Positions 3,818-18,180 of a stretch of DNA of 31,322 nt are shown here, one piece after another. Numbering within the stretch: the first letter of the stretch is position 1; each line of letters begins with the position of its first letter. The notes below the pieces were generated by a model. That model saw only the letters and a list, made by a program, of their open reading frames with translations, was not told the origin of the DNA and ran no database searches. Position numbers and translations under genes: made by a program. Origin of the DNA: a virus; IMG/VR virus record IMGVR_UViG_3300046167_000179, positions 1 to 31,322 of that record. One strand, 5' to 3'.

Positions 3818-4408
3818 TTATAATAATTTGTCGTAGTCTCCGTTAAAGTAATCTTGAGCATCTTCATCAAACTTATCCCTTAGTCTTCTCTTGCAGTTCT
3901 TAGATGTATTGTATAGCGAGGTTAGGCTTATGCCTTTGTACTGATTACCATCCTCATCTATAAACTTGCTTTCTTTCTCTAAACCTCTTAGAGATATATC
4001 TGTCTTGTAGTAAATGTCCGTAAACATTATATCGTACCTATGCCATTGCTTTATCTCTTTGTCGATACTATCCATTAAGTTCTGGAAGGCATAATTTTCT
4101 TTAATGTCAAAAGCTTCTAAAACTTGGTAAGAGTAAACAACCTCATCATACTCAACGAGAGGCTGCTTACTTTTTACCCTCTTATAATCAATACAAACAC
4201 TAAACAAAGTACTGTAGAAGTAACCGAATCGTATTCCGTTATCTTCGTTTAAAATCTTATTAACGTCTTTTAAAGACCTGTGTATTTTTAAATATGCTTC
4301 TTGTACTAAATCCTCAGCAAACATATTAGAGCCTACAAACTTAACAGCCAATCCAACCCACTTTTTGTGGCTCTTGTAAAGCTCTGCTAATAACTCATTC
4401 TTAGTCAT
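3818..4408 (-). CDS. Sigma-70-like (ECF-type) transcription factor, copy A
   Basis: A 196-residue protein. Residues 12-45 (KKWVGLAVKFVGSNMFAEDL then VQEAYLKIHRSL) resemble sigma region 2, where a D/E-D-L-V-Q-E-A-Y/F motif is the hallmark. Residues about 160-182 (SLTSLYNTSKNCKRRLRDKF) resemble the second helix of region 4, which contacts the -35 element. The linker carries FTDIYYKTDISLRGLEKES, a helix-turn-helix-like stretch. Phage sigma-like factors of this sort are thought to redirect host RNA polymerase to phage promoters. The gene sits downstream of RusA with a 33-base AT-rich gap. A copy at 8525-9109 has the same protein except for two residues missing at the C-terminus; the base differences between them are silent. 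Confidence 0.7.
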   Translation of the reverse strand: MTKNELLAELYKSHKKWVGLAVKFVGSNMFAEDLVQEAYLKIHRSLKDVNKILNEDNGIRFGYFYSTLFSVCIDYKRVKSKQPLVEYDEVVYSYQVLEAFDIKENYAFQNLMDSIDKEIKQWHRYDIMFTDIYYKTDISLRGLEKESKFIDEDGNQYKGISLTSLYNTSKNCKRRLRDKFDEDAQDYFNGDYDKLL

Positions 4409-4441
4409 ACATAAATATATGACAAAATAAAAATATAATAA

Positions 4442-4843
4442 TTAAAAGTTATTAACAATTACAACTTCTATTCTACCATTACCTTTGTCGTATTCTGTAG
4501 GTAGTATTGTCTCTGTCTTAACAAAGTCATCATTGTCATCTTCCCAGCAACCATAGTGTGTTATGGCATCCAATAGAAATTTAGATACAACAGCTATTGC
4601 ATTCATTTTATCTCTTCTTCTTCTGTCTGGGCTAAATAACTGATAAGTTATATTAACAGGTGTGTCTATCTTAATGCCCTCTAACTGGTCTCTCATAACT
4701 TCAAAGAATACTTTTTTAGCATTGTTCTTCATAATGTGGTGCAGGTTCATAAACCTGTTCATATTAAGCCAAACGTTTACATTCTTCTTTGTCTTTTTAG
4801 GTAGTTCTACATACATAGGAACTATAAGTTTTAGTTCTGACAT
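4442..4843 (-). CDS. rusA: RusA-like Holliday junction resolvase, copy A
   Basis: A 133-residue protein, the usual length for RusA. The central PDRRRRDKMNAIAVVSKFLL segment, then DAITHYGCWEDDNDDFV, matches the RusA core: an Asp and an Asn in D-x-x-N, then a helix, then the acidic D-D-x-x-V site that binds metal. Family members cut four-way DNA junctions as dimers and help resolve recombination or replication intermediates before packaging. The ATG shares a base with the stop of the ATPase gene. Copy B1 at 9143-9544 has the same C-terminal half but a clearly different N-terminal half; a third, truncated copy is at 10254-10475. Confidence 0.88.
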   Translation of the reverse strand: MSELKLIVPMYVELPKKTKKNVNVWLNMNRFMNLHHIMKNNAKKVFFEVMRDQLEGIKIDTPVNITYQLFSPDRRRRDKMNAIAVVSKFLLDAITHYGCWEDDNDDFVKTETILPTEYDKGNGRIEVVIVNNF

Positions 4844-5689
4844 TATATTATATTGTCTAAATATGATGTATCTACTACTTCTGGCAAACCTGCTTGGTTA
4901 ACCTTAAAACTAAAGTCATCAAAAGAAAAGCTTCTACTTCTTTTACAGCTAACAGTAACCCATCCTTTATTCTGTGTGTTCTTCTCTAGTTGTATCTGTG
5001 TCTCCGTCTTCTTCTCAAGAAAAGAACCTAAGTGACCTGTGGGTTTGGTTGACCCAAAGTTACTATGTATAACTGTAATAATATGGCAGTTATGCTCTGC
5101 TGTCCATCTCATAATCCTTTGTACTATCTCAGAAGACTCTGTAATATTATTTACATCTGAAACTAAATCAGCAATTCCATCAATGACAACTAATCCAATA
5201 TTCTTAGACTGTAACTTATCAGTTAGTATGTATTCTATAAAATCTATCCTTTCTGTATAAGACATCTTTCTTAAAGCGTAAGTGTGATAGTCATCATCAA
5301 TCTCTCCTGCATTCATATCTACAGGTCTTCCTAAACACCTTTTGTGCGTGATACCTTCCTTGCTCCGTATCAAAGTGTATAACCCTTCTCTTATCCCTTA
5401 ATCCTTTTATGTGTCCACTAAACTTATTACTGCCTTTTAGGTATGTACTTACTAGTAAACTTACAAAGTAGGTCTTCATACTTTTAGGAGGTGCTTGTAT
5501 AAAGCTAAAGTTACCATAAGTGGCTAAAGGTATTGTATAGGTTTTATCTCCCTTCAAAGTAGTTAGGTTAGCTTCTCCACAGGATATAGCTATTGGAGGT
5601 TCTTTTATCTCTTCAGATATGTCTACATAGGCATCCTCCTCTAGTAGAGCCATCAACATTCTTTGTTCTTCTTTTTCTTCTATACTCAT
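4843..5689 (-). pseudogene. RecA/RepA-like AAA ATPase, copy A, frameshifted
   Basis: Same gene as the intact copy at 10475-11320, but one extra base in the C pair at 5330-5331 breaks the frame after QKVFR. The upstream piece runs on in the wrong frame to a stop at 5297. Taking out one base restores exactly 281 residues that are nearly identical to the intact copy. Start chosen at the ATG at 5689 (MSIEEKEEQ), which follows AACAAATCAAT; a TTG 13 codons upstream also keeps the frame but overlaps the zinc-protein gene. The P-loop region reads APPKSMKT here. If the insertion is real, copy A makes no full-length ATPase. Confidence 0.85.
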
Positions 5690-5703
5690 ATTGATTTGTT
5701 TGT

Positions 5704-5841
5704 TTATCTGTTTGATGCGTCTATACAACTAAAGCAACAGTATTGTTTACCAAGCTGTATCTCTATACCACATTCCATACATTCACTATTGTCTTCTAAA
5801 GACTCATAGTAGTTATTTAATTCTTCGTCAAATGCTTCCAT
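5704..5841 (-). CDS. Zinc-ribbon-like 45-residue protein, copy A
   Basis: A short gene starting at the ATG at 5841, directly after a terminator hairpin. The protein is acidic at the front (MEAFDEELNNYYESLEDNSE) and carries a CMEC pair and then YCCFSC, so four to five cysteines are in a treble-clef/zinc-ribbon arrangement (C-x2-C...C-C-x2-C). The stop is 14 bases before the preferred ATPase start. Such mini zinc proteins are frequent in phage replication operons; partner and role are unknown. Conservation of the frame in both copies, with one Ile-to-Leu change, supports it as a real gene. Confidence 0.65.
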   Translation of the reverse strand: MEAFDEELNNYYESLEDNSECMECGIEIQLGKQYCCFSCIDASNR

Positions 5842-5852
5842 AGTGTTGTAAT

Positions 5853-5880
5853 AAAAAAGGGGAAGCTTTTACACCTCCCC
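5853..5880 (-). terminator. Intrinsic terminator after SSB, copy A
   Basis: On the minus strand GGGGAGG pairs with CTTCCCC around an eight-base loop (hairpin 5859-5880) and is followed at once by six T (5853-5858). It sits seven bases downstream of the SSB stop and just before the zinc-protein start. It would end or attenuate the upstream half of the early operon. Confidence 0.75.
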
Positions 5881-5886
5881 AATAAA

Positions 5887-6195
5887 TTAAAATGGCAAAT
5901 CGTTTGATACAGTTGTCTGTGTTGATTTAACATTGTTCTCCTTAGATTGGAAAACTGCTTTAGTACAATTTCCATCTGTCCATACAACTTGACCATTACC
6001 TAAATAGTCCTTAGCTTTCTTAGCTTCTCTCTCCTCTTTAGTTTGAGAATCAAATACTGAAACGTTCTGACCATACTGATTGGTATCGTCATTTACCGAT
6101 AGTGTAAAGTTGTAATAATTACCTGCTTTACCTTTTACGATTTTTTGTTTAGGCAACTTGTCTAAGTTGATACTAACATTAATTAATGCACTCAT
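5887..6195 (-). CDS. ssb: Single-stranded DNA-binding protein, copy A (intact)
   Basis: A 102-residue protein from the ATG at 6195 (MSALINVSINLDKLPKQ), preceded by an A-rich leader. The N-terminal part has the beta-rich pattern of an OB fold (YYNFTLSVNDD..., NVSVFDSQTKEE, QVVWTDG). The protein ends in DLPF, the acidic-hydrophobic tail with which bacterial SSBs bind partner proteins. It is shorter than cellular SSBs (about 150-180), as is common in phages. It lies between the ERF annealing protein and the replication ATPase. The copy at 11518-11827 has a frameshift, so this is the functional version in the window. Confidence 0.82.
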   Translation of the reverse strand: MSALINVSINLDKLPKQKIVKGKAGNYYNFTLSVNDDTNQYGQNVSVFDSQTKEEREAKKAKDYLGNGQVVWTDGNCTKAVFQSKENNVKSTQTTVSNDLPF

Positions 6196-6247
6196 ATTAT
6201 AATTGTTTAAATTTGTGTCTAAAAGAATCCGTAGACACATCGGATAT

Positions 6248-6808
6248 TTATTTTAATAAAGCCTCTGCGACTTTCTTACTTATCTTATACTTGGTTCTAA
6301 GAGTATCTATATCTCCACCATCCTTTAACCATTTCTGTGCTTTAGGAAACTCTGGTGTACCTTCGTTTAACCATTTAGTTGGTTCTGCTGACTTAGCACC
6401 TTTTCCGTGTGTATTTGTAGCATCAGCATCTTTAGTGTCGTCTATTAAGAACATTCCATTTAAAGCATACTTTCTTGCATAAGATGAACTACTACCAAAT
6501 GATTGTGCTATGTCCATACCTTTTCTATTAGGGTCTATACCTGCCTGTGCCTGTACACTAACCTTTGCATCCATATCTCCTAATGTAACTGTTGCTTCTG
6601 CAAACAATACTCCTCCTAGTTCTTTTATCTCATCAGAGATAGTTAAAGCTAAAGCATACTTACTTAATAGTGGCTTAACTGCCTCTAGTATGTCTTCACA
6701 GCTTCTGTAGTTGTACTTACCAAAATTATTCCTTTGGTTCTTTGGTGCTTTCAATTCTTTTTGAATTGCGATTAACTTGTCGTTAAAATCTAAATCTTTT
6801 TTACTCAT
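6248..6808 (-). CDS. erf: ERF-family single-strand annealing protein, copy A (intact)
   Basis: A 186-residue protein carrying two family hallmarks: NFGKYNYRSCEDILEAVKPL (residues 28-47) and, near residues 105-125, SFGSSSSYARKYALNGMF followed by LIDDTKDAD. ERF proteins anneal complementary single strands and promote phage recombination and genome circularisation. The C-terminal 35 residues are a Lys-rich helical tail. It would work with the PDDEXK exonuclease and SSB of the same block. Its start overlaps the end of the small membrane-protein gene by 8 bases, indicating coupling. The second copy at 11880-12441 has a one-base insertion. Confidence 0.88.
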   Translation of the reverse strand: MSKKDLDFNDKLIAIQKELKAPKNQRNNFGKYNYRSCEDILEAVKPLLSKYALALTISDEIKELGGVLFAEATVTLGDMDAKVSVQAQAGIDPNRKGMDIAQSFGSSSSYARKYALNGMFLIDDTKDADATNTHGKGAKSAEPTKWLNEGTPEFPKAQKWLKDGGDIDTLRTKYKISKKVAEALLK

Positions 6809-6947
6809 CTTTATTATTGTTTAATTTACTAATTTCTAAATACTTTCTAATCCAATATCTTAATTCAGACTTGGTCTTTTTAATCACAACTATCAAATGC
6901 ACTATCGATGCAATAAGTAATAGTAATGTTAATAATACTAGTATCAT
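6801..6947 (-). CDS. Small single-pass membrane protein, copy A
   Basis: A 48-residue gene whose start overlaps the upstream stop as ATGA and whose stop overlaps the ERF start by 8 bases. The N-terminus, about 22 residues (MILVLLTLLLLIASIVHLIV...), is one hydrophobic membrane span, followed by a basic, probably cytoplasmic tail (KKTKSELRYWIRKYLE). The frame is kept in copy B. Function is unknown; its place among early genes makes a holin role less likely than a host-membrane or exclusion role, but nothing in the sequence shows which. Confidence 0.65.
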   Translation of the reverse strand: MILVLLTLLLLIASIVHLIVVIKKTKSELRYWIRKYLEISKLNNNKDE

Positions 6948-7108
6948 AACGACCTTAATATTATTTCTTTATAACCATCTGGCAGTTCGTCTGCCTCACA
7001 AAGTTCTATTACTAGTTCTTTAAGTTGGTCTTTCTCTATTGTTAATCTTCCTACTAAGCCTTCTAAAGCTTTTATTCTTTGATTTAGGTAATCTATTGTA
7101 TCGCTCAT
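6944..7108 (-). CDS. Small coiled-coil protein, copy A
   Basis: A 54-residue protein from the ATG at 7108 (MSDTIDYLNQRIKALEGLVG), chosen because an A-rich leader precedes it; a longer reading from a TTG is less likely. Heptad-like Leu/Ile spacing runs through residues 5-40, so a short coiled coil is likely. The last bases overlap the start of the membrane microprotein as ATGA. Copy B has an Ile-to-Val change and an Asp-to-Glu change only. Function unknown. Confidence 0.65.
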   Translation of the reverse strand: MSDTIDYLNQRIKALEGLVGRLTIEKDQLKELVIELCEADELPDGYKEIILRSL

Positions 7109-7144
7109 TATAATTGTTTTATGGTGCAATCTACAATTAATATT

Positions 7145-7444
7145 TTAATCCACCAAATTTATATTAATATTTCTCTTGTTAGCGTGTAAATAGTCTTTCT
7201 CTTCCCTAACTTTAAACTCTACACATACTCTAGTAAGGTTAGTATCTTCCTTTAACATATCCCACATCATATCATCTATAGCTACCCAACCTACCTTTGG
7301 TTCTCTACTGATAGCTGAATCTAATCTTTCTAATTCTCTATCTACATCTCTTAGGTAATTGCTTACATTCTTATTATCTGTAAACTCTAGTAACAAGTTT
7401 ATAGTTTTGTTCCGTATTTCTTCTATTGATTTTGAGTAGTCCAT
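7145..7444 (-). CDS. Hypothetical 99-residue early protein, copy A
   Basis: An acidic, mainly helical protein (MDYSKSIEEIRNKTINLLLE at the start), with GWVAIDDMMWDMLKEDTNL in the middle and a basic Asn-rich end. It has no recognised domain. Copy B at 12778-13077 encodes the same residues, although several third codon positions differ, which is good evidence that it is a real gene under protein-level constraint. It lies one base from the stop of the 46-residue gene upstream. Confidence 0.7.
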   Translation of the reverse strand: MDYSKSIEEIRNKTINLLLEFTDNKNVSNYLRDVDRELERLDSAISREPKVGWVAIDDMMWDMLKEDTNLTRVCVEFKVREEKDYLHANKRNININLVD

Positions 7445-7445
7445 A

Positions 7446-7586
7446 CTAACTTCTTTTTTGTATTCTTTTTTCCTCTACCCATCCTGTTATTGGGTTTACC
7501 TTTTCTTCCCAAAACCTATAGTCTCCATAAGTAAAGTAGTTTGTTCTTTCTCTATCTTCTTTAAATAATTCTTTAGTCTTACCCAT
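7446..7586 (-). CDS. Hypothetical 46-residue early protein, copy A
   Basis: Starts at the ATG at 7586, overlapping the stop of the upstream gene by 8 bases (AATGGGTAAG). The protein (MGKTKELFKEDRERTNYFTY...) is highly charged with an aromatic middle (YRFWEEKVNPITGW) and a basic end. It fits end to end between its neighbours, and copy B preserves the frame with one Glu-to-Gly change. A longer overlapping frame at 7496-7693 was rejected in favour of this one. Function unknown. Confidence 0.6.
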   Translation of the reverse strand: MGKTKELFKEDRERTNYFTYGDYRFWEEKVNPITGWVEEKRIQKRS

Positions 7587-7776
7587 TTCTTAAATCTATT
7601 AGTATTAAATTTCTTTTCATTGTATCTGGCATCTTTCTTAGATACCTGTTGTAGTACCAATACTCTGCGTCTTCTTTGTTTGTGTAGAAGCAAGAGTAGT
7701 CGTGTAAGTTACCATCATCATCTGGTGCTTTATAAATCCAATTCTTAACTTCGTTAAATCTTCGTAATGTAATCAT
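7579..7776 (-). CDS. Hypothetical 65-residue early protein, copy A
   Basis: A small protein rich in Tyr and Asn: MITLRRFNEVKNWIYKAPDD, followed by CFYTNKEDAEYWYYNRYLRK. The motif of a short beta hairpin, then an ED-A-E-Y-W helix, looks like a compact alpha/beta fold but matches no family I can name. It is the second gene of the early operon and is coupled to the 46-residue gene. Copy B encodes the same protein. Confidence 0.62.
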   Translation of the reverse strand: MITLRRFNEVKNWIYKAPDDDGNLHDYSCFYTNKEDAEYWYYNRYLRKMPDTMKRNLILIDLRNG

Positions 7777-7843
7777 ACCTGTTTATGTTTTAAACAAAGC
7801 TAATAAACATAATCTAGACTACCAAAAAATAAGTAATGTATTT

Positions 7844-8224
7844 TTACCAAATAGCAAAGTAAGCAGGTTGTAAACTATCCGTGTCAAAGTATAAGGTATC
7901 TTCGCTAACAGCTATTCTTTCTATACCACACTCTATAAGTCCTTTAATAAGTCTCATTCTCTTCTTTGTAGATAAGACTCTAATCCTTATTCCTAAACCA
8001 ACCCTATGTGCATTCTTAGATGGTAGGAACATTTTATCAGCTACAGGTTTTGAAGTATACCCTAGTATAATATCTGGTCTTATTCTATACATCTTACAAA
8101 CAACGTCTAAAATGTACACAGGTTCTCTTTCCATAAATAAATAACCAGAACCTTCAGAATCTGGAGAATCAAACATAGACCATCTTAAATGTGTTAAACC
8201 TTCTGTATCTCTCTCATTATCCAT
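7844..8224 (-). CDS. Degenerate M15 peptidase-like protein, copy A
   Basis: A 126-residue protein and first gene of the early operon. Its second half aligns with the phage's own M15 endolysin (14733-15056): AHRVGLGIRIRVLS against SHIKGLAVDIRTTD, then RMRLIKGLIECGIERIAV against RYRVLNALIHVGFNRIGI, and both end in a Trp-containing tail. The first zinc ligand His is kept (His73), but the Asp ligand is Arg80 and the second His ligand is Tyr112. It therefore probably keeps the peptidase fold without metal-dependent cleavage. It might bind peptidoglycan or inhibit something, but no partner is visible. Copy B at 13477-13857 encodes the same protein. The homology call comes from hand alignment. Confidence 0.6.
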   Translation of the reverse strand: MDNERDTEGLTHLRWSMFDSPDSEGSGYLFMEREPVYILDVVCKMYRIRPDIILGYTSKPVADKMFLPSKNAHRVGLGIRIRVLSTKKRMRLIKGLIECGIERIAVSEDTLYFDTDSLQPAYFAIW

Positions 8225-8244
8225 AAGTTACGCTTTATCTATAT

Positions 8245-8252
8245 CAAATATA
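8245..8252 (-). promoter_or_regulatory. Candidate Bacteroidota-type -7 box, copy A
   Basis: The minus strand reads TATATTTG, an exact match to the TAnnTTTG -7 element of Bacteroidota promoters, 20 bases before the first early gene start at 8224. No convincing -33 TTG is seen at the usual spacing, so it may be weak or activator-dependent. Confidence 0.42.
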
Positions 8253-8281
8253 TCATAAATAAATAACATAATTGTTAATTG

Positions 8282-8291
8282 CTGTTAACAG
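8282..8291. promoter_or_regulatory. Perfect 10-base palindrome, copy A
   Basis: CTGTTAACAG, 30 bases upstream of the -7 box. Possible operator; the same site is kept in copy B. Confidence 0.3.
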
Positions 8292-8362
8292 ATAGGTATT
8301 GACTTTCTAATTTTTTTAATATAACTTCGTCTTCATAAAATGAAATACTTCTCCTTTTAACT

Positions 8363-8403
8363 ATATCTTATCGTAGCCTCCCAAAAGGCGAAGATAAAGA
8401 TAT
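8363..8403 (-). other. Structured RNA hairpin in control region, copy A
   Basis: ATATCT/AGATAT, TATC/GATA and GCCT/AGGC pair in nested order around a small loop, with one bulge and a small internal loop. No T run follows, so it is more likely a regulatory or processing structure than a terminator. The copy at 13996-14036 has the same stem. No known riboswitch family is recognised. Confidence 0.4.
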
Positions 8404-8431
8404 TATCTTTAAGTATTAAGATTTAAGTATG

Positions 8432-8470
8432 TAAAGAAAACATTATAGTTATACCAATACAGGATAACTA
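8432..8470 (-). terminator. Weak intrinsic terminator, copy A
   Basis: A nine-pair stem with one bulged base and a six-base loop (8446-8470) is followed on the minus strand by TAATGTTTTCTTT. Copy B has an unbroken six-T run at this place, so this copy should terminate less well. Confidence 0.45.
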
Positions 8471-8524
8471 TGTTCTAATTTTAGGGAATAAATATTCGTA
8501 GATGAATATCTTGTTTTTAGTCTT

Positions 8525-9109
8525 TTACTTGTCGTAGTCTCCGTTAAAGTAATCTTGAGCATCTTCATCAAACTTATCCCTTAGCCTTCTCTTGCAGTTC
8601 TTGGATGTATTGTATAGTGAGGTTAGGCTTATGCCTTTGTACTGATTACCATCCTCATCTATAAACTTGCTTTCTTTCTCTAAACCTCTTAGAGATATAT
8701 CTGTCTTGTAGTAAATGTCCGTAAACATTATATCGTACCTATGCCATTGCTTTATCTCTTTGTCGATACTATCCATTAAGTTCTGGAAGGCATAGTTTTC
8801 TTTAATGTCAAAAGCTTCTAAAACTTGGTAAGAGTAAACAACCTCATCATACTCAACGAGAGGCTGCTTACTTTTTACCCTCTTATAATCAATACAAACA
8901 CTAAACAAAGTACTGTAGAAGTAACCGAATCGTATTCCGTTATCTTCGTTTAAAATCTTATTAACGTCTTTTAAAGACCTGTGTATTTTTAAATATGCTT
9001 CTTGAACTAAATCTTCAGCAAACATATTAGAGCCTACAAACTTAACAGCCAATCCAACCCACTTTTTGTGGCTCTTGTAAAGCTCTGCTAATAACTCATT
9101 CTTAGTCAT
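8525..9109 (-). CDS. Sigma-70-like transcription factor, copy B
   Basis: This copy encodes 194 residues that match copy A (3818-4408) up to the last two. The duplication junction replaces the final Leu-Leu codons with a stop, so the protein ends GDYDK. All base differences seen inside the gene are silent, for example GTA/GTT in the LVQEAY motif. That pattern argues that both versions come from functional genes and not from random read errors. The sigma region 2- and region 4-like parts are complete. Confidence 0.7.
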   Translation of the reverse strand: MTKNELLAELYKSHKKWVGLAVKFVGSNMFAEDLVQEAYLKIHRSLKDVNKILNEDNGIRFGYFYSTLFSVCIDYKRVKSKQPLVEYDEVVYSYQVLEAFDIKENYAFQNLMDSIDKEIKQWHRYDIMFTDIYYKTDISLRGLEKESKFIDEDGNQYKGISLTSLYNTSKNCKRRLRDKFDEDAQDYFNGDYDK

Positions 9110-9142
9110 ACATAAATATATGACAAAATAAAAATATAATAA

Positions 9143-9544
9143 CTAAAAGTTATTAACAATTACAACTTCTATTCTACCATTACCTTTGTCGTATTCTGTA
9201 GGTAGTATTGTCTCTGTCTTAACAAAGTCATCATTGTCATCTTCCCAGCAACCATAGTGTGTTATGGCATCCAATAGAAATTTAGATACAACAGCTATTG
9301 CATTCATTTTATCTCTTCTTCTTCTGTCTGGACTAAATAACTGGTAAGTTATATTAACAGGTGTATCTATCTTAATGCCCTCTAACTGGTCTCTCATAAC
9401 TTCAAAGAATACTTTTTTAGCATTACCTTTAACAATATAATGCAAGTGAATAAACTTATTCATATTAAGCCAAACGTTTAAATTCTTCTTTGTCTTTCTA
9501 GGTAGTTCTACATACATAGGAACTATAAGTTTTAGTTCTGACAT
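9143..9544 (-). CDS. rusA: RusA-like Holliday junction resolvase, copy B1 (divergent N-terminal half)
   Basis: A 133-residue RusA with the same catalytic half as copy A (D-x-x-N and the EDDNDD site). Residues about 16-43 differ at many positions: PRKTKKNLNVWLNMNKFIHL, then HYIVKGNAKK, where copy A has PKKTKKNVNVWLNMNRFMNL and HHIMKNNAKK. The local cluster of replacements, next to a nearly identical remainder, looks like a recombination tract from a related phage. The gene is complete and starts in the usual overlap with the ATPase stop. Confidence 0.86.
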   Translation of the reverse strand: MSELKLIVPMYVELPRKTKKNLNVWLNMNKFIHLHYIVKGNAKKVFFEVMRDQLEGIKIDTPVNITYQLFSPDRRRRDKMNAIAVVSKFLLDAITHYGCWEDDNDDFVKTETILPTEYDKGNGRIEVVIVNNF

Positions 9545-10260
9545 TATATTATATTGTCTAAATATGATGTATCTACTACTTCTGGCAAACCTGCTTGGTT
9601 AACCTTAAAACTAAAGTCATCAAAGGAAAAGCTTCTACTTCTTTTACAGCTAACAGTAACCCATCCTTTGTTCTGTGTGTTCTTCTCTAGTTGTATCTGT
9701 GTCTCCGTCTTCTTCTCAAGGAAAGAACCTAAGTGACCTGTGGGTTTAGTTGAACCAAAGTTACTATGTATAACTGTAATGATATGGCAGTTATGCTCTG
9801 CTGTCCATCTCATAATCCTTTGTACTATCTCAGAAGACTCTGTAATATTATTTACATCCGAAACTAAATCGGCAATTCCATCAATGACAACTAATCCAAT
9901 ATTCTTAGACTGTAACTTATCAGTTAGTATGTATTCTATAAAATCTATTCTTTCTGTATAAGACATCTTTCTTAAAGCGTAAGTATGATAGTCATCATCA
10001 ATCTCTCCTGCATTCATATCTACAGGTCTCCTAAACACCTTTTGTGCGTGATACCTTCCTTGCTCCGTATCAAAGTGTATAACCCTTCTCTTATCCCTTA
10101 ATCCTTTTATGTGTCCACTAAACTTATTACTGCCTTTTAGGTATGTACTTACTAGTAAACTTACAAAGTAGGTCTTCATACTTTTAGGAGGTGCTTGTAT
10201 AAAGCTAAAGTTACCATAAGTGGCTAAAGGTATTGTATAGGTTTTATCTCCCTTTAAAGT
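9330..10260. repeat. Inner tandem duplication, first unit (931 bases)
   Basis: The unit runs from inside rusA to inside the ATPase gene and is followed directly by a second unit at 10261-11191. The ATPase stop recurs exactly 931 bases later (9544 and 10475). The join at 10260/10261 fuses an ATPase codon region to the middle of rusA with about one base of overlap. Confidence 0.88.
9544..10260 (-). pseudogene. RecA/RepA-like ATPase fragment, copy B1 (N-terminus lost)
   Basis: The frame enters from the inner duplication join at 10260 and is missing about the first 44 residues of the 281-residue protein. The remaining sequence is intact: APPKSMKT, HFDTEQG, LVVIDGIADL and the C-terminal SYLDNII. 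The first in-frame ATG lies within the P-loop region (10179), so a product starting there would lack nucleotide-binding residues. It has no start codon or leader at its upstream end. It overlaps the truncated rusA by a few bases and is probably non-functional. Confidence 0.82.
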
Positions 10261-10475
10261 GGGCTAAATAACTGATAAGTTATATTAACAGGTGTGTCTA
10301 TCTTAACACCTTCTAACTGGTCTTTCATAACCTCAAAGAATACTTTTTTAGCATTGTTCTTCATAATGTGATGTAGGTTCATAAACCTGTTCATATTAAG
10401 CCAAACGTTTACATTCTTCTTTGTCTTTTTAGGTAGTTCTACATACATAGGAACTATAAGTTTTAGTTCTGACAT
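10254..10475 (-). pseudogene. rusA: Truncated rusA, copy B2
   Basis: The 5' part of rusA (72 native residues plus one) that runs into the duplication join and stops at once. The catalytic Asp/Asn and DD residues are lost, so it cannot be an active resolvase. Its N-terminal half matches the copy A variety (NVNVWLNMNRFMNLHHIMKN) and not copy B1, with Arg-to-Lys and Ile-to-Val changes. Three rusA versions in one window therefore represent at least two sequence types. Confidence 0.82.
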
Positions 10476-11191
10476 TATATTATATTGTCTAAATATGATG
10501 TATCTACTACTTCTGGCAAACCTGCTTGGTTAACCTTAAAACTAAAGTCATCAAAGGAAAAGCTTCTACTTCTTTTACAGCTAACAGTAACCCATCCTTT
10601 GTTCTGTGTGTTCTTCTCTAGTTGTATCTGTGTCTCCGTCTTCTTCTCAAGGAAAGAACCTAAGTGACCTGTAGGTTTAGTTGAACCAAAGTTACTATGT
10701 ATAACTGTAATGATATGGCAGTTATGCTCTGCTGTCCATCTCATAATCCTTTGTACTATCTCAGAAGACTCTGTAATATTATTTACATCCGAAACTAAAT
10801 CGGCAATTCCATCAATGACAACTAATCCAATATTCTTAGACTGTAGCTTATCAGTTAGTATGTATTCTATAAAATCTATTCTTTCTGTATAAGACATCTT
10901 TCTTAAAGCGTAAGTATGATAGTCATCATCAATCTCTCCTGCATTCATATCTACAGGTCTTCTAAACACCTTTTGTGCGTGATACCTGCCTTGCTCCGTA
11001 TCAAAGTGTATAACCCTTCTCTTATCCCTTAATCCTTTTATGTGTCCGCTAAACTTGTTACTGCCTTTTAGGTATGTACTTACTAGTAAACTTACAAAGT
11101 AGGTCTTCATGACTTTAGGAGGTGCTTGTATAAAGCTAAAGTTACCATAAGTGGCTAAAGGTATTGTATAGGTTTTATCTCCCTTTAAAGT
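10261..11191. repeat. Inner tandem duplication, second unit (931 bases)
   Basis: Second unit of the inner tandem repeat, holding the truncated rusA and most of the intact ATPase gene. Unlike the first unit, its rusA part resembles copy A. The two units are therefore not a simple recent duplication of identical DNA. Confidence 0.88.
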
Positions 11192-11320
11192 AGTTAGGTT
11201 AGCTTCTCCACAGGATATAGCTATTGGAGGTTCTTTTATCTCTTCAGATATGTCTACATAAGCATCTTCCTCTAGTAGAGCCATCAACATTCTTTGTTCT
11301 TCTTTTTCTTCTATACTCAT
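10475..11320 (-). CDS. RecA/RepA-like AAA ATPase, copy B2 (only intact copy)
   Basis: A 281-residue protein from the ATG at 11320. Residues 66-73 (APPKVMKT) occupy the P-loop place: the Lys-Thr pair is kept, but the Gly residues of the usual Walker A are missing. Residues 105-110 (HFDTEQ), 166-175 (LVVIDGIADL, Walker B-like) and 202-210 (HIITVIHSN, sensor-like) complete a RecA-fold core like that of RepA/DnaB-type phage ATPases (AAA_25 group). It lies between SSB and RusA, so a role as replicative helicase or helicase loader is likely. The gene shares one base with the start of the truncated rusA. The exact helicase class cannot be settled from this sequence. Confidence 0.8.
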   Translation of the reverse strand: MSIEEKEEQRMLMALLEEDAYVDISEEIKEPPIAISCGEANLTTLKGDKTYTIPLATYGNFSFIQAPPKVMKTYFVSLLVSTYLKGSNKFSGHIKGLRDKRRVIHFDTEQGRYHAQKVFRRPVDMNAGEIDDDYHTYALRKMSYTERIDFIEYILTDKLQSKNIGLVVIDGIADLVSDVNNITESSEIVQRIMRWTAEHNCHIITVIHSNFGSTKPTGHLGSFLEKKTETQIQLEKNTQNKGWVTVSCKRSRSFSFDDFSFKVNQAGLPEVVDTSYLDNII

Positions 11321-11334
11321 ATTGATTTGTTTAT

Positions 11335-11472
11335 TTATCTGTTTGATGCGTCTAGACAACTAAAGCAACAGTATTGTTTACCAAGCTGTATCTCTATACC
11401 ACATTCCATACATTCACTATTGTCTTCTAAAGACTCATAGTAGTTATTTAATTCTTCGTCAAATGCTTCCAT
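11335..11472 (-). CDS. Zinc-ribbon-like 45-residue protein, copy B
   Basis: Same gene as 5704-5841, with all Cys residues (CMEC and YCCFSC) kept and a single Ile-to-Leu change near the C-terminus. It lies between the SSB terminator and the intact ATPase start. Confidence 0.65.
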   Translation of the reverse strand: MEAFDEELNNYYESLEDNSECMECGIEIQLGKQYCCFSCLDASNR

Positions 11473-11483
11473 AGTGTTGTAAT

Positions 11484-11511
11484 AAAAAAGGGGAAGCTTT
11501 TACACCTCCCC
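11484..11511 (-). terminator. Intrinsic terminator after SSB, copy B
   Basis: Same hairpin as 5853-5880, a GGGGAGG/CTTCCCC stem followed by six T on the minus strand, seven bases past the SSB stop. Confidence 0.75.
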
Positions 11512-11517
11512 AATAAA

Positions 11518-11827
11518 TTAAAATGGCAAATCGTTTGATACAGTTGTCTGTGTTGATTTAACATTGTTCTCCTTGGATTGGAAAACTGCTTTAGTACAAT
11601 TTCCATCTGTCCATACAACTTGACCATTACCTAAATAGTCCTTTAGCTTTCTTAGCTTCTCTCTCCTCTTTAGTTTGAGAATCAAATACTGAAACGTTCT
11701 GACCATACTGATTGGTATCGTCATTTACCGATAGTGTAAAGTTGTAATAATTACCTGCTTTACCTTTTACGATTTTTTGTTTAGGCAACTTGTCTAAGTT
11801 GATACTAACATTAATTAATGCACTCAT
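11518..11827 (-). pseudogene. ssb: Single-stranded DNA-binding protein, copy B, frameshifted
   Basis: Matches the intact SSB at 5887-6195, but there is one extra T in the run at 11642-11644. The frame from the ATG at 11827 goes off course after the KEEREAKKAK segment and stops shortly after. The lost C-terminal part includes the DLPF partner-binding tail. Removing one base gives the same 102-residue length as copy A. It is either a sequencing error in a short homopolymer or a recent inactivating mutation. Confidence 0.85.
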
Positions 11828-11879
11828 ATTATAATTGTTTAAATTTGTGTCTAAAAGAATCCGTAGACACATCGGATAT

Positions 11880-12441
11880 TTATTTTAATAAAGCCTCTGC
11901 GACTTTCTTACTAATCTTATACTTGGTTCTAAGAGTATCTATATCTCCACCATCCTTTAACCACTTCTGTGCTTTAGGGAAACTCTGGTGTACCTTCGTT
12001 TAACCATTTAGTTGGTTCTGCTGACTTAGCACCTTTTCCGTGTGTATTTGTAGCATCAGCATCTTTAGTGTCGTCTATTAAGAACATTCCATTTAACGCA
12101 TACTTTCTTGCATAAGATGAACTGCTACCAAATGATTGTGCAATGTCCATACCTTTTCTATTAGGGTCTATACCTGCCTGTGCCTGTACACTAACCTTTG
12201 CATCCATATCTCCTAATGTAACTGTTGCTTCTGCAAACAATACTCCTCCTAGTTCTTTTATCTCATCAGAGATAGTTAAAGCTAAAGCATACTTACTTAA
12301 TAGTGGCTTAACTGCCTCTAGTATGTCTTCACAACTTCTGTAGTTGTACTTACCAAAATTATTCCTTTGGTTCTTTGGTGCTTTCAATTCTTTTTGAATT
12401 GCGATTAACTTGTCGTTAAAATCTAAATCTTTTTTACTCAT
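11880..12441 (-). pseudogene. erf: ERF-family annealing protein, copy B, frameshifted
   Basis: Matches the intact ERF gene at 6248-6808. A third G in the run at 11977-11979 shifts the frame after EGTPEFP, so the product stops at 155 residues and loses the Lys-rich C-terminal tail (about 31 residues). The core ERF motifs are complete, so a shortened protein could still anneal DNA in principle. Correcting one base gives exactly 186 residues. Confidence 0.85.
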
Positions 12442-12580
12442 CTTTATTATTGTTTAATTTACTAATTTCTAAATACTTTCTAATCCAATATCTTAATTCA
12501 GACTTGGTCTTTTTAATCACAACTATCAAATGCACTATCGATGCAATAAGTAATAGTAATGTTAATAATACTAGTATCAT
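12434..12580 (-). CDS. Small single-pass membrane protein, copy B
   Basis: Copy of 6801-6947: one N-terminal hydrophobic span of about 22 residues and a basic tail. It keeps the ATGA overlap with the upstream gene and the 8-base overlap with ERF. Confidence 0.65.
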   Translation of the reverse strand: MILVLLTLLLLIASIVHLIVVIKKTKSELRYWIRKYLEISKLNNNKDE

Positions 12581-12741
12581 AACGACCTTAATATTATTTC
12601 TTTATAACCCTCTGGCAGTTCGTCTGCCTCACAAAGCTCTATTACTAGTTCTTTAAGTTGGTCTTTCTCTATTGTTAATCTTCCTACTAAGCCTTCTAAA
12701 GCTTTTACTCTTTGATTTAGGTAATCTATTGTATCGCTCAT
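12577..12741 (-). CDS. Small coiled-coil protein, copy B
   Basis: Copy of 6944-7108 with Ile-to-Val and Asp-to-Glu changes (NQRVKALEGL, DELPEGY). The heptad spacing and the terminal ATGA overlap are kept. Confidence 0.65.
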   Translation of the reverse strand: MSDTIDYLNQRVKALEGLVGRLTIEKDQLKELVIELCEADELPEGYKEIILRSL

Positions 12742-12777
12742 TATAATTGTTTTATGGTGCAATCTACAATTAATATT

Positions 12778-13077
12778 TTAGTCCACCAAATTTATATTAA
12801 TATTTCTCTTGTTAGCGTGTAAATAGTCTTTCTCTTCCCTAACTTTAAACTCTACACATACCCTAGTAAGGTTAGTATCTTCCTTTAACATATCCCACAT
12901 CATATCATCTATAGCTACCCAACCTACCTTTGGTTCTCTACTGATAGCTGAATCTAATCTTTCTAGCTCCCTATCTACATCTCTTAGGTAATTACTTACA
13001 TTCTTATTATCTGTAAACTCTAGTAACAAGTTTATAGTTTTGTTTCGTATTTCTTCTATTGATTTTGAGTAGTCCAT
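12778..13077 (-). CDS. Hypothetical 99-residue early protein, copy B
   Basis: Encodes the same residues as 7145-7444 despite several silent base changes, which supports selection on the protein in both lineages. Function unknown. Confidence 0.7.
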   Translation of the reverse strand: MDYSKSIEEIRNKTINLLLEFTDNKNVSNYLRDVDRELERLDSAISREPKVGWVAIDDMMWDMLKEDTNLTRVCVEFKVREEKDYLHANKRNININLVD

Positions 13078-13078
13078 A

Positions 13079-13219
13079 CTAACTTCTTTTTTGTATTCTT
13101 TTTCCTTCTACCCATCCTGTTATTGGGTTTACCTTTTCTTCCCAAAACCTATAGTCTCCATAAGTAAAGTAGTTTGTTCTTTCTCTATCTTCTTTAAATA
13201 ATTCTTTAGTCTTACCCAT
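13079..13219 (-). CDS. Hypothetical 46-residue early protein, copy B
   Basis: Copy of 7446-7586 with the same start, stop and overlaps and one Glu-to-Gly change near the C-terminus. Confidence 0.6.
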   Translation of the reverse strand: MGKTKELFKEDRERTNYFTYGDYRFWEEKVNPITGWVEGKRIQKRS

Positions 13220-13409
13220 TTCTTAAATCTATTAGTATTAAATTTCTTTTCATTGTATCTGGCATCTTTCTTAGATACCTGTTGTAGTACCAATACTCTG
13301 CGTCTTCTTTGTTTGTGTAGAAGCAAGAGTAGTCGTGTAAGTTACCATCATCATCTGGTGCTTTATAAATCCAATTCTTAACCTCGTTAAATCTTCGTAA
13401 TGTAATCAT
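13212..13409 (-). CDS. Hypothetical 65-residue early protein, copy B
   Basis: Encodes the same Tyr-rich protein as 7579-7776. Second gene of the early operon, overlapping the next start by 8 bases. Confidence 0.62.
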   Translation of the reverse strand: MITLRRFNEVKNWIYKAPDDDGNLHDYSCFYTNKEDAEYWYYNRYLRKMPDTMKRNLILIDLRNG

Positions 13410-13476
13410 ACCTGTTTATGTTTTAAACAAAGCTAATAAACATAATCTAGACTACCAAAAAATAAGTAATGTATTT

Positions 13477-13857
13477 TTACCAAATAGCAAAGTAAGCAGG
13501 TTGTAAACTATCCGTGTCAAAGTATAAGGTATCTTCGCTAACAGCTATTCTTTCTATACCACACTCTATAAGTCCTTTAATAAGTCTCATTCTCTTCTTT
13601 GTAGATAAGACTCTAATCCTTATTCCTAAACCAACCCTATGTGCATTCTTAGATGGTAGGAACATTTTATCAGCTACAGGTTTTGAAGTATACCCTAGTA
13701 TAATATCTGGTCTTATTCTATACATCTTACAAACAACGTCTAAAATGTACACAGGTTCTCTTTCCATAAATAAATAACCAGAACCTTCAGAATCTGGAGA
13801 ATCAAACATAGACCATCTTAAATGTGTTAAACCTTCTGTATCTCTCTCATTATCCAT
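13477..13857 (-). CDS. Degenerate M15 peptidase-like protein, copy B
   Basis: Encodes the same 126 residues as 7844-8224, including the retained His73 and the replaced zinc ligands Arg80 and Tyr112. This copy lies behind the original control region downstream of the lysis cassette, so it is in what looks like the ancestral position of the first early gene. The true endolysin lies about 0.9 kb upstream, so gene duplication followed by loss of catalysis is a plausible origin, although the two proteins are now well diverged. Confidence 0.6.
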   Translation of the reverse strand: MDNERDTEGLTHLRWSMFDSPDSEGSGYLFMEREPVYILDVVCKMYRIRPDIILGYTSKPVADKMFLPSKNAHRVGLGIRIRVLSTKKRMRLIKGLIECGIERIAVSEDTLYFDTDSLQPAYFAIW

Positions 13858-13877
13858 AAGTTACGCTTTATCTATAT

Positions 13878-13885
13878 CAAATATA
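13878..13885 (-). promoter_or_regulatory. Candidate Bacteroidota-type early promoter -7 box, copy B
   Basis: Minus-strand TATATTTG matches TAnnTTTG, 20 bases from the first early start codon (13857). The palindrome CTGTTAACAG is 30 bases upstream, where an operator or activator site could sit. No clear -33 TTG. Confidence 0.45.
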
Positions 13886-13907
13886 TCATAAATAAATAAC
13901 ATAATTG

Positions 13908-13997
13908 TTAATTGCTGTTAACAGATAGGTATTGACTTTCTAATTTTTTTAATATAACTTCGTCTTCATAAAATGAAATACTTCTCCTTTTAACCAT
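13908..13997 (-). CDS. Possible 29-residue microprotein in the control region
   Basis: ATG at 13997 opens a 29-codon frame (MVKRRSISFYEDEVILKKLE, then a short polar end). The start resembles the beta strand and first helix of ribbon-helix-helix repressors (basic, R-S-I-S-F, then a charged helix), but it is too short for a full domain and may be a remnant. The ATG lies on the 3' arm of the 13996-14036 hairpin. In copy A the start codon is ATA, so the frame is not conserved as a gene there. Confidence 0.25.
   Translation of the reverse strand: MVKRRSISFYEDEVILKKLESQYLSVNSN
13915..13924. promoter_or_regulatory. Perfect 10-base palindrome, copy B
   Basis: CTGTTAACAG, 30 bases upstream of the early -7 box and overlapping the end of the possible microprotein frame. 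Possible operator. Confidence 0.3.
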
Positions 13998-14036
13998 ATC
14001 TTATCGTAGCCTCCCAAAAGGCGAAGATAAAGATAT
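13996..14036 (-). other. Structured RNA hairpin in control region, copy B
   Basis: Nested ATATCT/AGATAT, TATC/GATA and GCCT/AGGC pairing with a CCCAAA-type loop, identical to 8363-8403. Its base covers the ATG of the possible microprotein, so it could limit its translation. No known RNA family recognised. Confidence 0.42.
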
Positions 14037-14064
14037 TATCTTTAAGTATTAAGATTTAAGTATG

Positions 14065-14103
14065 TAAAGAAAAAATTATAGTTATACCAATACAGGATAA
14101 CTA
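14065..14103 (-). terminator. Intrinsic terminator of the structural/lysis operon
   Basis: A nine-pair stem with one bulge and a six-base loop (14079-14103) is followed on the minus strand by AATTTTTTCTTT. It lies 55 bases past the holin stop and should end late transcription before the early genes. Confidence 0.65.
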
Positions 14104-14157
14104 TGTTCTAATTTTAGGGAATAAATATTCGTAGATGAATATCTTGTTTTTAGTCTT

Positions 14158-14616
14158 TTACTTGTGACGTATTTTCTCTAGAGTTCTAGCACCAAAATAT
14201 CCACCATAAACTAACATAAGTAGATTGCCGAGTAGTGATACCCACTCAGAATCTATTTTAAAGCCTTCTAAGGCACTATCTAGTATAATGTAGATAAATA
14301 GTGTCAATGTAAGAAAAGCTAGGCTTAAAGGTCTTATATTCTTACTTAACCAACTATCAGATAGCATATCAGATTGCCAACGTTTAGTTACCTCTTGCAT
14401 CTCTATAACGTCTTGTTCTAGTTCTTTAACTAACATTTCTTTTTCTGCTTCTGTTAGTTCCTTACTGCTACCAATAGATTTTAATATATCAGATACTTTA
14501 CCACCAGTAATTGCATCAAATATTGGAGATACTTTTTTACCAGTACTTACAAGACTTCTTAATAAATTGCCAAAGAAAGTACCTTTGCCATTGTTTTTTA
14601 ACTTATTATTAGCCAT
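14158..14616 (-). CDS. Holin, 3TM / gene-transfer-agent type
   Basis: A 152-residue protein. A basic N-terminus and a helical, charged middle with SKELTEAEKEMLVKELEQDV lead to SKNIRPLSLAFLTLTLFIYI and then a second span, WVSLLGNLLMLVYGGYFGAR. The N-R-P-x-x-x-x-x-F entry into the first span and the Y-G-G-Y-F-G-x-R-T-x-E-K ending are the signature of the Holin_3TMs family. These proteins form inner-membrane lesions that let the endolysin out at lysis. The neighbouring M15 peptidase and small membrane protein make up the rest of the cassette, and it is the last gene before the terminator. Confidence 0.82.
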   Translation of the reverse strand: MANNKLKNNGKGTFFGNLLRSLVSTGKKVSPIFDAITGGKVSDILKSIGSSKELTEAEKEMLVKELEQDVIEMQEVTKRWQSDMLSDSWLSKNIRPLSLAFLTLTLFIYIILDSALEGFKIDSEWVSLLGNLLMLVYGGYFGARTLEKIRHK

Positions 14617-14732: not shown

Positions 14733-15056
14733 TTAGTATGTCCAAATTACTTGTTGAGATTTGTCTTTATCGTCATCAACGTGAATAAATGTATCTGCAA
14801 TACCTATACGATTAAAACCAACGTGTATAAGAGCATTTAAAACTCTGTATCTAGTTCTACTATCAGTTGTTCTTATGTCTACTGCTAGACCTTTAATATG
14901 GCTTGAGGTAGGATTTTTTATAGACTCTGGATGTTCTGGACTTCTATAAGCAGAATTAATTACAAATGGTACTTTAGCAAACTCTCTTGCCTTGTCTAGT
15001 TTAGCAAGAAAGTCTGCATCCATTTTATATTCTACTTCTTTAAAGTATTTTGTCAT
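14733..15056 (-). CDS. Endolysin, M15-family (M15A-like) peptidase
   Basis: A compact 107-residue protein consisting of the peptidase domain alone. Ser-Ser-His53, Asp60 in GLAVDIR and His92 in FIHVD are the three expected zinc ligands, and NSAYRSPEHP carries the substrate-site Tyr-Arg. Family members cut peptide bonds in peptidoglycan cross-bridges. There is no signal peptide, so it would depend on the adjacent holin for release. Its start overlaps the upstream small membrane-protein gene by 17 bases. After its stop, 116 bases without a convincing gene precede the holin. Confidence 0.88.
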   Translation of the reverse strand: MTKYFKEVEYKMDADFLAKLDKAREFAKVPFVINSAYRSPEHPESIKNPTSSHIKGLAVDIRTTDSRTRYRVLNALIHVGFNRIGIADTFIHVDDDKDKSQQVIWTY

Positions 15057-15743: not shown

Positions 15744-16898
15744 TTACACTTGTGTTAATGCAGCTAACTCGCTATCGCTTAATGCTGTGTTGTAAACTCT
15801 TATATCTTTGCAGTTTAAATAGCTTTTTTGAAAACCACTTGATAGCGAAAAATTTAAAACATTCATTCCAATAGGTGAAGTTACGCTTGTATATGATGAT
15901 GCAAGTGTTCCATTTACATAAAATTTACTCACTCCGCCACCCCAAGACAAAGCAAACTTATTGTTATTATCTTGTGCAATTCCAGTAGCACCAAACCCAG
16001 ATGTTTGAAGTACTCCTCCAGATTTAACTTCTGCATTTATATTTCCGCTAAATCTTGAAAAACCAAAATTAATGGCGTTATTTAAAGAACCATCTGACAA
16101 TGTAATTTTCCTATCAGTTCCATCATCATCTAAAGCACTACCCTCGAAATAAAATACTCCCTCTGTTGAATTTATTACTTGGTCATTACCTCCATTAGTA
16201 CAACTATCAGCCAACCTCGTTACTGCACTTCCAGATGTAGGAATATACGATGTAGCGTAACTGCCTTGTTCTAATTGTGGTGCGAATATTTCAATATCTC
16301 TTGCGGTTGTAGAAGAATATGTATTTATAGTTAATCTATTTGTAGATAAAGAACTACCAGTTTGAATTAATTTCTGCCACTCTCCATTTAAAGTAAAAAC
16401 ACCCTCATTACTATTACTACCAAACTTTATTGTTTTACCTACTGAACCTTTAATCCATATTGAAGCAGTTGGTATAATTGTTACAGATGAAGTATTATTT
16501 CTAAATTCTCTTGATGAACTTGTAAATTGTATTCTTGTCGATTTTAATTCAGAACCAGTAAATGGTGTTGTTCCGTAATTCTGCGTTATAGTATTATCAC
16601 TATCTCCAGACCACCCATTTGAACCTCTAATAATACCCTCTGTTTCTGAATATAAAACATAATTTGTCCTCTGTGGTTCAAGAAGCAAAGCACCTTTACT
16701 ATCATCCTTATAATCTACTCTTGGTTGTCCACTACCTACTTCTTCAATTAAACCATCTTTATTTACAAAAGTAGCCTTTGATGCTCTTGAGAAATTAAAG
16801 GGCAGTGGCTTATAATTCGAGTTTAAATCATTATAGGCAAGGATAGTATCTTTCTTTCCATACCATTCTCCATTGCCAAATTTTAATGTATTCGCCAT
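15744..16898 (-). CDS. LamG/concanavalin A-like fibre or adhesin, paralogue 1
   Basis: A 384-residue protein with three parts. Residues 1-85 are a conserved virion-attachment-type head (MANTLKFGNGEWYGKK..., LPFNFSRASKATFVNKDGLI, GALLLEPQRTN). Residues about 86-225 are a beta-sandwich-like region ending in GSYATSYIPTSGSAVTR. Residues about 235-380 are a LamG-type domain (KITLSDGS, KFYVNGTL, DIRVYNTALSDSEL). Proteins with the R-A-S-x-A-T and L-L-L-E-P-x-R-T-N motifs are typical phage appendages with carbohydrate-binding sandwiches, so this probably contacts host surface glycans. It is the last of four related genes in tandem. Confidence 0.78.
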   Translation of the reverse strand: MANTLKFGNGEWYGKKDTILAYNDLNSNYKPLPFNFSRASKATFVNKDGLIEEVGSGQPRVDYKDDSKGALLLEPQRTNYVLYSETEGIIRGSNGWSGDSDNTITQNYGTTPFTGSELKSTRIQFTSSSREFRNNTSSVTIIPTASIWIKGSVGKTIKFGSNSNEGVFTLNGEWQKLIQTGSSLSTNRLTINTYSSTTARDIEIFAPQLEQGSYATSYIPTSGSAVTRLADSCTNGGNDQVINSTEGVFYFEGSALDDDGTDRKITLSDGSLNNAINFGFSRFSGNINAEVKSGGVLQTSGFGATGIAQDNNNKFALSWGGGVSKFYVNGTLASSYTSVTSPIGMNVLNFSLSSGFQKSYLNCKDIRVYNTALSDSELAALTQV

Positions 16899-16899
16899 C

Positions 16900-18178: not shown

Positions 18179-18180
18179 AT

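Follow-up and report, generated by a model that had tools for sequence, protein, structure and literature searches.

The window analysed here, that is, the whole stretch of DNA under study, comprises 31,322 nt, positions 1 to 31,322 of the IMG/VR virus record IMGVR_UViG_3300046167_000179. An open reading frame on its minus strand, at 7844-8224, encodes a protein of 126 aa; coordinates and translation were verified. The protein resembles the M15 endolysins of phages, yet keeps only one of their three zinc ligands, and we refer to it as pseudo-M15. The features of the locus are as follows.

7844..8224, minus strand: pseudo-M15 gene, copy 1, 126 aa
8006-8008, minus strand: His73 codon of copy 1
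7985-7987, minus strand: Arg80 codon of copy 1, at the position of the zinc-binding Asp
7889-7891, minus strand: Tyr112 codon of copy 1, at the position of the second zinc-binding His
8245..8252, minus strand: TATATTTG, candidate Bacteroidetes-type -7 promoter element, copy 1, 28 nt upstream of the start
13477..13857, minus strand: pseudo-M15 gene, copy 2, in a rearranged segment, with normal neighbours and the holin upstream
13878..13885, minus strand: TATATTTG element, copy 2, in the holin/pseudo-M15 intergenic region
14733..15056, minus strand: canonical M15 endolysin with the intact His53/Asp60/His92 ligand set (Pfam Peptidase_M15_3 5.9e-10, PHROG 894 endolysin 4e-21)
14158..14616, minus strand: holin, which ends the lysis cassette and lies immediately upstream of pseudo-M15 (PHROG 3427 holin 4.8e-23)
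10475..11359, minus strand: AAA (RepA-like) ATPase of the early operon, intact copy (Pfam AAA_25 5.8e-10)
7579..7776, minus strand: 65-aa protein, next gene of the early operon, weakly similar to T7 gp1.2 (E 0.027, below cut-off)
6248..6808, minus strand: ERF-family single-strand annealing protein of the early operon (Pfam ERF 1e-35)
5887..6240, minus strand: SSB-like protein of the early operon (Pfam SSB 0.0017, weak)
3818..4408, minus strand: phage sigma-70 region 2 protein, downstream in the operon (Pfam Sigma70_r2 1.1e-6)

The product of T7 gene 1.2 is a dGTPase inhibitor. The usual gene order among the relatives is lysin, holin, pseudo-M15, small ORFs, Erf, SSB, AAA ATPase, nuclease and sigma-like protein, and the lysin-holin-pseudo-M15-Erf linkage recurs in most loci. 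The unduplicated order in the window is the same, with lysin (15056..14733), holin (14616..14158) and pseudo-M15 (13857..13477) following one another consecutively. The original prediction placed the gene at the head of the early operon and outside the lysis cassette. A candidate promoter of its own is indeed present, but the gene adjoins the endolysin and holin as the very next one, and since some relatives have, upstream of it, an ORF of about 76-114 aa that is translationally coupled, pseudo-M15 is not always first. Small ORFs of this size form a family (GSDSxKxxKxxVKKxSRxIYRAIKxxD), without a Pfam match, whose members overlap or abut pseudo-M15 or a NinG-like gene from upstream (L174 5583-5813; L067 9706-9990; L080 4213-4497; L062 9751-9990; L091 2401-2673).

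The two copies of the pseudo-M15 gene show 0 differences over 381 bp. They belong to window repeats of about 98% identity (3828-8520 versus 8529-14153), in which the early region occurs twice and the AAA/nuclease segment three times, the third copy being partial; the parts are 3828-8520, 8529-10260 and 10260-14153, and the repeated part contains broken frames in Erf, SSB and AAA. Relatives L001, L004 and L007 are collinear with the window and each carries the repeated segment in single copy, and 26 of the 26 relatives searched likewise have one copy only. The duplicated early region is likely a chimeric assembly, though it may stem from a genuine rearrangement. That both copies encode the same residues, as originally pointed out, is true to the letter; nevertheless, because the second copy is identical and sits in a rearranged segment that is single-copy in relatives, it provides no independent evidence. 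Two functional copies are ruled out, the duplication being missing from relatives. Elsewhere in the window, 15744-20267 holds a run of related paralogous proteins sharing repeats of 62-84% identity (repeat families D7-D9), which probably function as tail fibres or in receptor binding.

The TATATTTG element is kept at -28 in L001-L010, the closest relatives of the window. TAnnTTTG, which we take to be the Bacteroidetes -7 promoter element, lies at most 150 nt upstream of pseudo-M15 in 33 of 71 distinct leaders, compared with 11% in shuffles; it is missing from about half of the 71, and is frequent in the AT-rich window as a whole (64 sites versus 43 expected). Position and promoter motifs together suggest that pseudo-M15 is likely expressed early. 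A second leader element, GGGGAGG followed after about 35 nt by CCTCCCC-AATACTTT, ends about 12-23 nt before the pseudo-M15 start and often lies downstream of TAnnTTTG. It occupies the last ~70 nt in L022, L023, L027, L029, L033, L035, L040, L041, L046, L051 and L052, and is also present in L012 and L039. Stems of at least 7 bp, with at least 5 G/C, occur in 13 of the 71 leaders versus 0.15% in shuffles. The element resembles a structured 5' leader or an attenuator; an Rfam search of the window gave no match.

BLASTP aligns pseudo-M15 with the endolysin of the window at E 2e-8 (29% identity over 56 aa), pairing His73 with His53, Arg80 with Asp60 and Tyr112 with His92. The hand alignment on which the original prediction was based, in which only the His73 ligand is kept, is thus correct. 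The spacing of His73 and Arg80 is that of the M15 ligand pair His-x6-Asp, as in VldE, whose ligands are His301/Asp308 and His375 (PMC11667670). A profile built from 30 family members matches the canonical M15 endolysin of relative G024 at E 1.2e-20 and those of further relatives at E values of roughly 1e-8 to 1e-12. Curated libraries do not recognise the family, which stays below the thresholds of Pfam, NCBIfam and PHROGs: for the window protein there is no match to Pfam PF08291 and nothing significant in Pfam or PHROGs, and the commonest match among members, PHROG 894 in 11 of 30, reaches a best E of only 0.0029, below cut-off. A sequence profile search of the PDB with pseudo-M15 also returned no match.

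Scanning viral contigs with the window protein yielded 16 loci, and relatives found by alignment numbered 97 and then 155, so that the family is present in more than 150 uncultured viral contigs. No confirmed relatives were found among 84,980 bacterial and archaeal species genomes. Against deposited phages the window protein gave weak matches only, and the best matches of the family consensus were M15 endolysins, that of Agrobacterium phage Atu_ph03 at 5e-5. The family is real and previously unnamed, and its carriers are a widespread lineage of marine phages. Judged by the major capsid protein (39% identity), the nearest cultured phages are the Nonlabens phages P12024S/L (Inhavirus), which have a similar lysin-holin-Erf order but other genes between holin and Erf, and in which pseudo-M15 was not detected.

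An AlphaFold2 model computed from 30 family sequences has a pLDDT of 95.1 and a pTM of 0.88; a model from 10 sequences (pLDDT 60) was set aside. The best PDB match of the model in VIA-align is 1LBU, the zinc DD-peptidase of Streptomyces albus (Z 12.8 over 118 residues), followed by LysECD7, ChiX, LysB4 and Ply500 (Z 8.3-8.8) and by Hedgehog domains (Z 7-8); the Hedgehog zinc complex 6pjv is among the structural matches. Foldseek against BFVD gave 29 matches at E < 1e-3, down to 4e-9, the named ones being nearly all M15 peptidases, whereas against the PDB none reached E < 1e-3, the top rows there being mostly M15 and Hedgehog. The M15-related fold that was proposed at the outset is thus borne out by structure prediction, and pseudo-M15 is predicted to have the M15 (LAS / Hedgehog-DD-peptidase) fold. 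M15, M23 and Hedgehog share a common LAS fold (PMC11667670).

Among 56 distinct family proteins, His73 and Tyr112 are present in all 56, and position 80 is Arg in 35, Lys in 13 and Gln in 8, with Asp in none. Arg74, Gly76, Lys88, Arg89, Arg103, Asp114, Trp15, Phe18-Asp19-Ser20 and Met31-Glu32-Arg33 are invariant as well, and Asp116 nearly so. In the more distant members (L103-L105, L090-L092, L141, L150, L161, L164) His73 is present throughout, position 80 is again basic or polar, and the Tyr is retained. Conservation of the Arg/Tyr replacements across homologues had been named as a check, and none of these members restores His/Asp/His. When 46 non-redundant pseudo-M15s were aligned with 50 M15 sequences (48 from the same phage group and two from outside), four sites split the two sets: position 80, Asp to Arg, Gln or Lys; position 112, His to Tyr; position 57, Arg to mostly Thr or Val (also Leu and Met), Arg not being among the commonest residues; and position 54, Ser to Leu, Arg or Glu. 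His73 and Gly76 are common to both. The endolysins of the same phages carry His, Asp and His at the zinc positions without exception among the aligned residues, and the Ser and Arg of their S-x-Y-R motif, changed in pseudo-M15s, are invariant in 49 of the 49 aligned. In M15 enzymes the active-site Arg is the presumed transition-state stabiliser (PMC11667670). Alteration of the zinc ligands together with the Arg/Ser pair argues against retained canonical substrate binding. Fold, conserved replacements and phylogeny give strong support to the view that the protein derives from M15 and cannot bind a catalytic zinc in the M15 manner, and we regard an M15-derived pseudoenzyme of one origin as nearly certain.

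In a tree of 96 rows, with few columns and an arbitrary root, the pseudo-M15s form a single clade (100/100) on a long branch. The clade adjoins M15 endolysins of the same phage group (98/88), many of which share an FDSPD..GSG..M N-terminus, as a comparison of the L062 lysin with its pseudo-M15 illustrates. The median dN/dS is 0.10 and the maximum 0.27 (242 pairs). Computationally, pseudo-M15 is thus shown to have arisen once from an endolysin-type M15 ancestor and to have been under strong purifying selection since; the simplest reading of these sequences would be one ancient duplication followed by long conservation. A decaying pseudogene is ruled out by a dN/dS of about 0.1 and by the invariant residues, and a chance resemblance to M15 by the profile E-values, the fold and the clade.

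The gene does not follow the type of lysin beside which it lies. Lysin type is known for 41 non-redundant members, the neighbouring enzyme being M15 in 29, a GH24 lysozyme in 6 (pseudo-M15 stands beside one in L026, L067, L080, L091 and L092) and an Amidase_2 in 6 (as in L081, L082 and L164). On the pseudo-M15 tree this amounts to at least 6 switches of lysin type, 3 of them forced by well-supported branches. Conversely, pseudo-M15 is missing from its slot in the near relatives L125 and L131, the latter with an M15 endolysin nearly identical to that of the window; searches of records without pseudo-M15 in the slot, which are contigs and may be incomplete, found the canonical enzyme only, or nothing. 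In L103-L105 a solitary pseudo-M15 (L103: 9980-10378) lies on the opposite strand among structural genes, a moron-like insertion. About 3 kb from pseudo-M15 in L103, and on the other strand, lies an M15 gene whose active-site motif, QHTYEYLGAVD, is unusual. Because pseudo-M15 is kept through lysin swaps, is absent beside a near-identical lysin in L131 and is solitary in L103-L105, its job is independent of the wall bond that the phage cuts; it is thus an accessory gene with its own expression unit, and very probably not an accessory of the M15 endolysin. Its usual adjacency to the lysis cassette could reflect co-regulation with lysis. A NinG-like nuclease gene, recognised by eye, occupies the pseudo-M15 slot after the holin in L143, L174, L183 and L188; in L053, L091 and L092 such a gene lies behind the AAA gene, where it alternates with RusA-type genes.

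Overall, the best explanation is a dead endolysin paralogue, encoded as a separate unit and acting as a binding module, a tentative account that falls a little short of evenly balanced. We infer early production, cytoplasmic location and binding, and the view of pseudo-M15 as a protein-binding, early host-interaction factor is possible, if on the doubtful side. The protein would be made in the cytoplasm, early in infection; the location is suggested because there is no hydrophobic segment (maximum 19-residue hydropathy 0.97), and no signal peptide or export signal is visible in the sequence, the N-terminus being acidic. The former active-site groove, lined by Arg/Lys/Gln80, Tyr112, His73-Arg74 and Asp114-Thr-Asp116, would serve to hold a conserved protein of the host or of the phage, and the invariant N-terminal FDSPD/FMERxPV surface would join it in doing so. 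For an accessory and sometimes moron-like gene, host takeover or the exclusion of competitors, rather than lysis, would be the most likely use. The fuller proposal, that a lysis enzyme was turned into an early non-enzymatic effector whose fold captures a conserved host protein for takeover or rival exclusion, is unlikely as it stands. M23 peptidases without zinc or catalytic residues mostly have protein-protein interaction roles, and EnvC and NlpD bind amidases via an inactive groove (PMC9662197); because of this precedent, capture of a protein partner is favoured over precursor binding or lysis control. The ligand of pseudo-M15 may also be other than a protein.

One alternative is that pseudo-M15 binds peptidoglycan stem peptides or cytoplasmic precursors such as UDP-MurNAc-pentapeptide, inhibiting or shielding wall synthesis, with Arg/Lys/Gln in place of the zinc. 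An M15 fold with its cleft and an endolysin-type ancestor are what such a protein would have, and a basic or polar side chain where the ligand was lost could mimic the charge of the metal. However, this function, the first that the original prediction offered, is weakened because the Ser and Arg of S-x-Y-R are gone and because neither an export signal nor a hydrophobic segment is seen, which leaves it improbable. A superinfection-exclusion or immunity factor against incoming related phages, also among the original suggestions, has a similarly low probability: many exclusion proteins carry a membrane or export signal that pseudo-M15 lacks, and PADLOC gave no match for the window protein and, in 2 of 30 members, a Cas6 match no better than chance, even though the accessory distribution, the solitary insertion in L103-L105, the promoter motif that roughly half of the leaders carry and the strong conservation would all suit such a factor.

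Lysis control through the M15 endolysin, likewise suggested before, would make pseudo-M15 an antilysin that competes or heterodimerises with that enzyme and so times lysis. It is an endolysin paralogue usually found directly behind the lysin-holin pair, as expected of such a protein, but phages with a GH24 lysozyme or an Amidase_2 as lysin retain it, it is missing from the slot in L131, in L103 it lies about 3 kb from the M15 gene and on the other strand, and it has no export signal, whereas the endolysin acts outside the membrane. The retention with other lysins and the absence from L131 disfavour this function, and we judge it quite improbable. The same low probability attaches to an enzyme whose chemistry has changed, with His73, Asp114, Asp116 and further residues acting with a different metal or without one; the invariance of His73, Arg74, Lys88, Arg89, Arg103, Tyr112 and Asp114 and the near invariance of Asp116 would fit a catalytic site, but no M15 enzyme missing two ligands as well as the active-site Arg is known to us. 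That pseudo-M15 replaces a NinG-type recombination nuclease, as the NinG-like gene after the same small ORF in L174, L183 and others, where L067 has pseudo-M15, might suggest, is rejected as highly improbable, since behind the AAA gene most of the pseudo-M15 genomes that were read have a nuclease-like gene, be it RusA-type, NinG-like or another, whereas genomes with NinG in the slot have none behind AAA, and three genomes carry both NinG and pseudo-M15, the slot swap being due to relocation of the nuclease.

Compared with known systems, pseudo-M15 shares with the M15 phage endolysins (PF08291, PHROG 894; Ply500, LysB4, T5 endolysin; 1LBU) the fold, the length, the position of His73, the H-x2-G spacing, often the N-terminal FDSPD..GSG..M, and the gene neighbourhood in which the phage's own lysin usually lies. 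It differs in having Arg/Lys/Gln for the zinc Asp and Tyr for the second His, in the loss of the S-x-Y-R Ser and Arg, in falling below Pfam and PHROG cut-offs, and in being kept when the lysin is not M15. Ply500, LysB4 and the T5 endolysin belong to a class of L-Ala-D-Glu and DD-peptidases. The Hedgehog N-terminal signalling domain likewise uses an M15-like (LAS) fold as a ligand rather than as a peptidase (Z 7-8), yet it is secreted and animal. Hedgehog keeps its zinc site. The degenerate LytM (M23) proteins EnvC, NlpD and DipM are, like pseudo-M15, LAS-fold peptidase relatives without zinc or catalytic residues (PMC9662197), but they are bacterial envelope proteins with known partners, while pseudo-M15 is a phage protein. 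As in a degenerate LAS-fold regulator, the zinc ligands of pseudo-M15 are lost and the fold is kept under purifying selection; the envelope localisation of EnvC and NlpD appears not to be shared, given the hydropathy maximum and the lack of a signal peptide.

Degenerate peptidoglycan hydrolases are already known as bacterial regulators, and we did not find a zinc-less M15 family of phages described; searches of the open-access literature gave nothing relevant on M15 or endolysin pseudoenzymes in phages. The family is abundant, of single origin and strongly conserved, and most of the same genomes also carry the active parent enzyme. It thus offers a natural experiment on the conversion of a lysis enzyme into a binding protein, and it indicates that a protein called M15 endolysin-like by fold alone may not be a lysin. 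If the effector reading is true, pseudo-M15 would represent a viral parallel to EnvC/NlpD and to Hedgehog, independently evolved.
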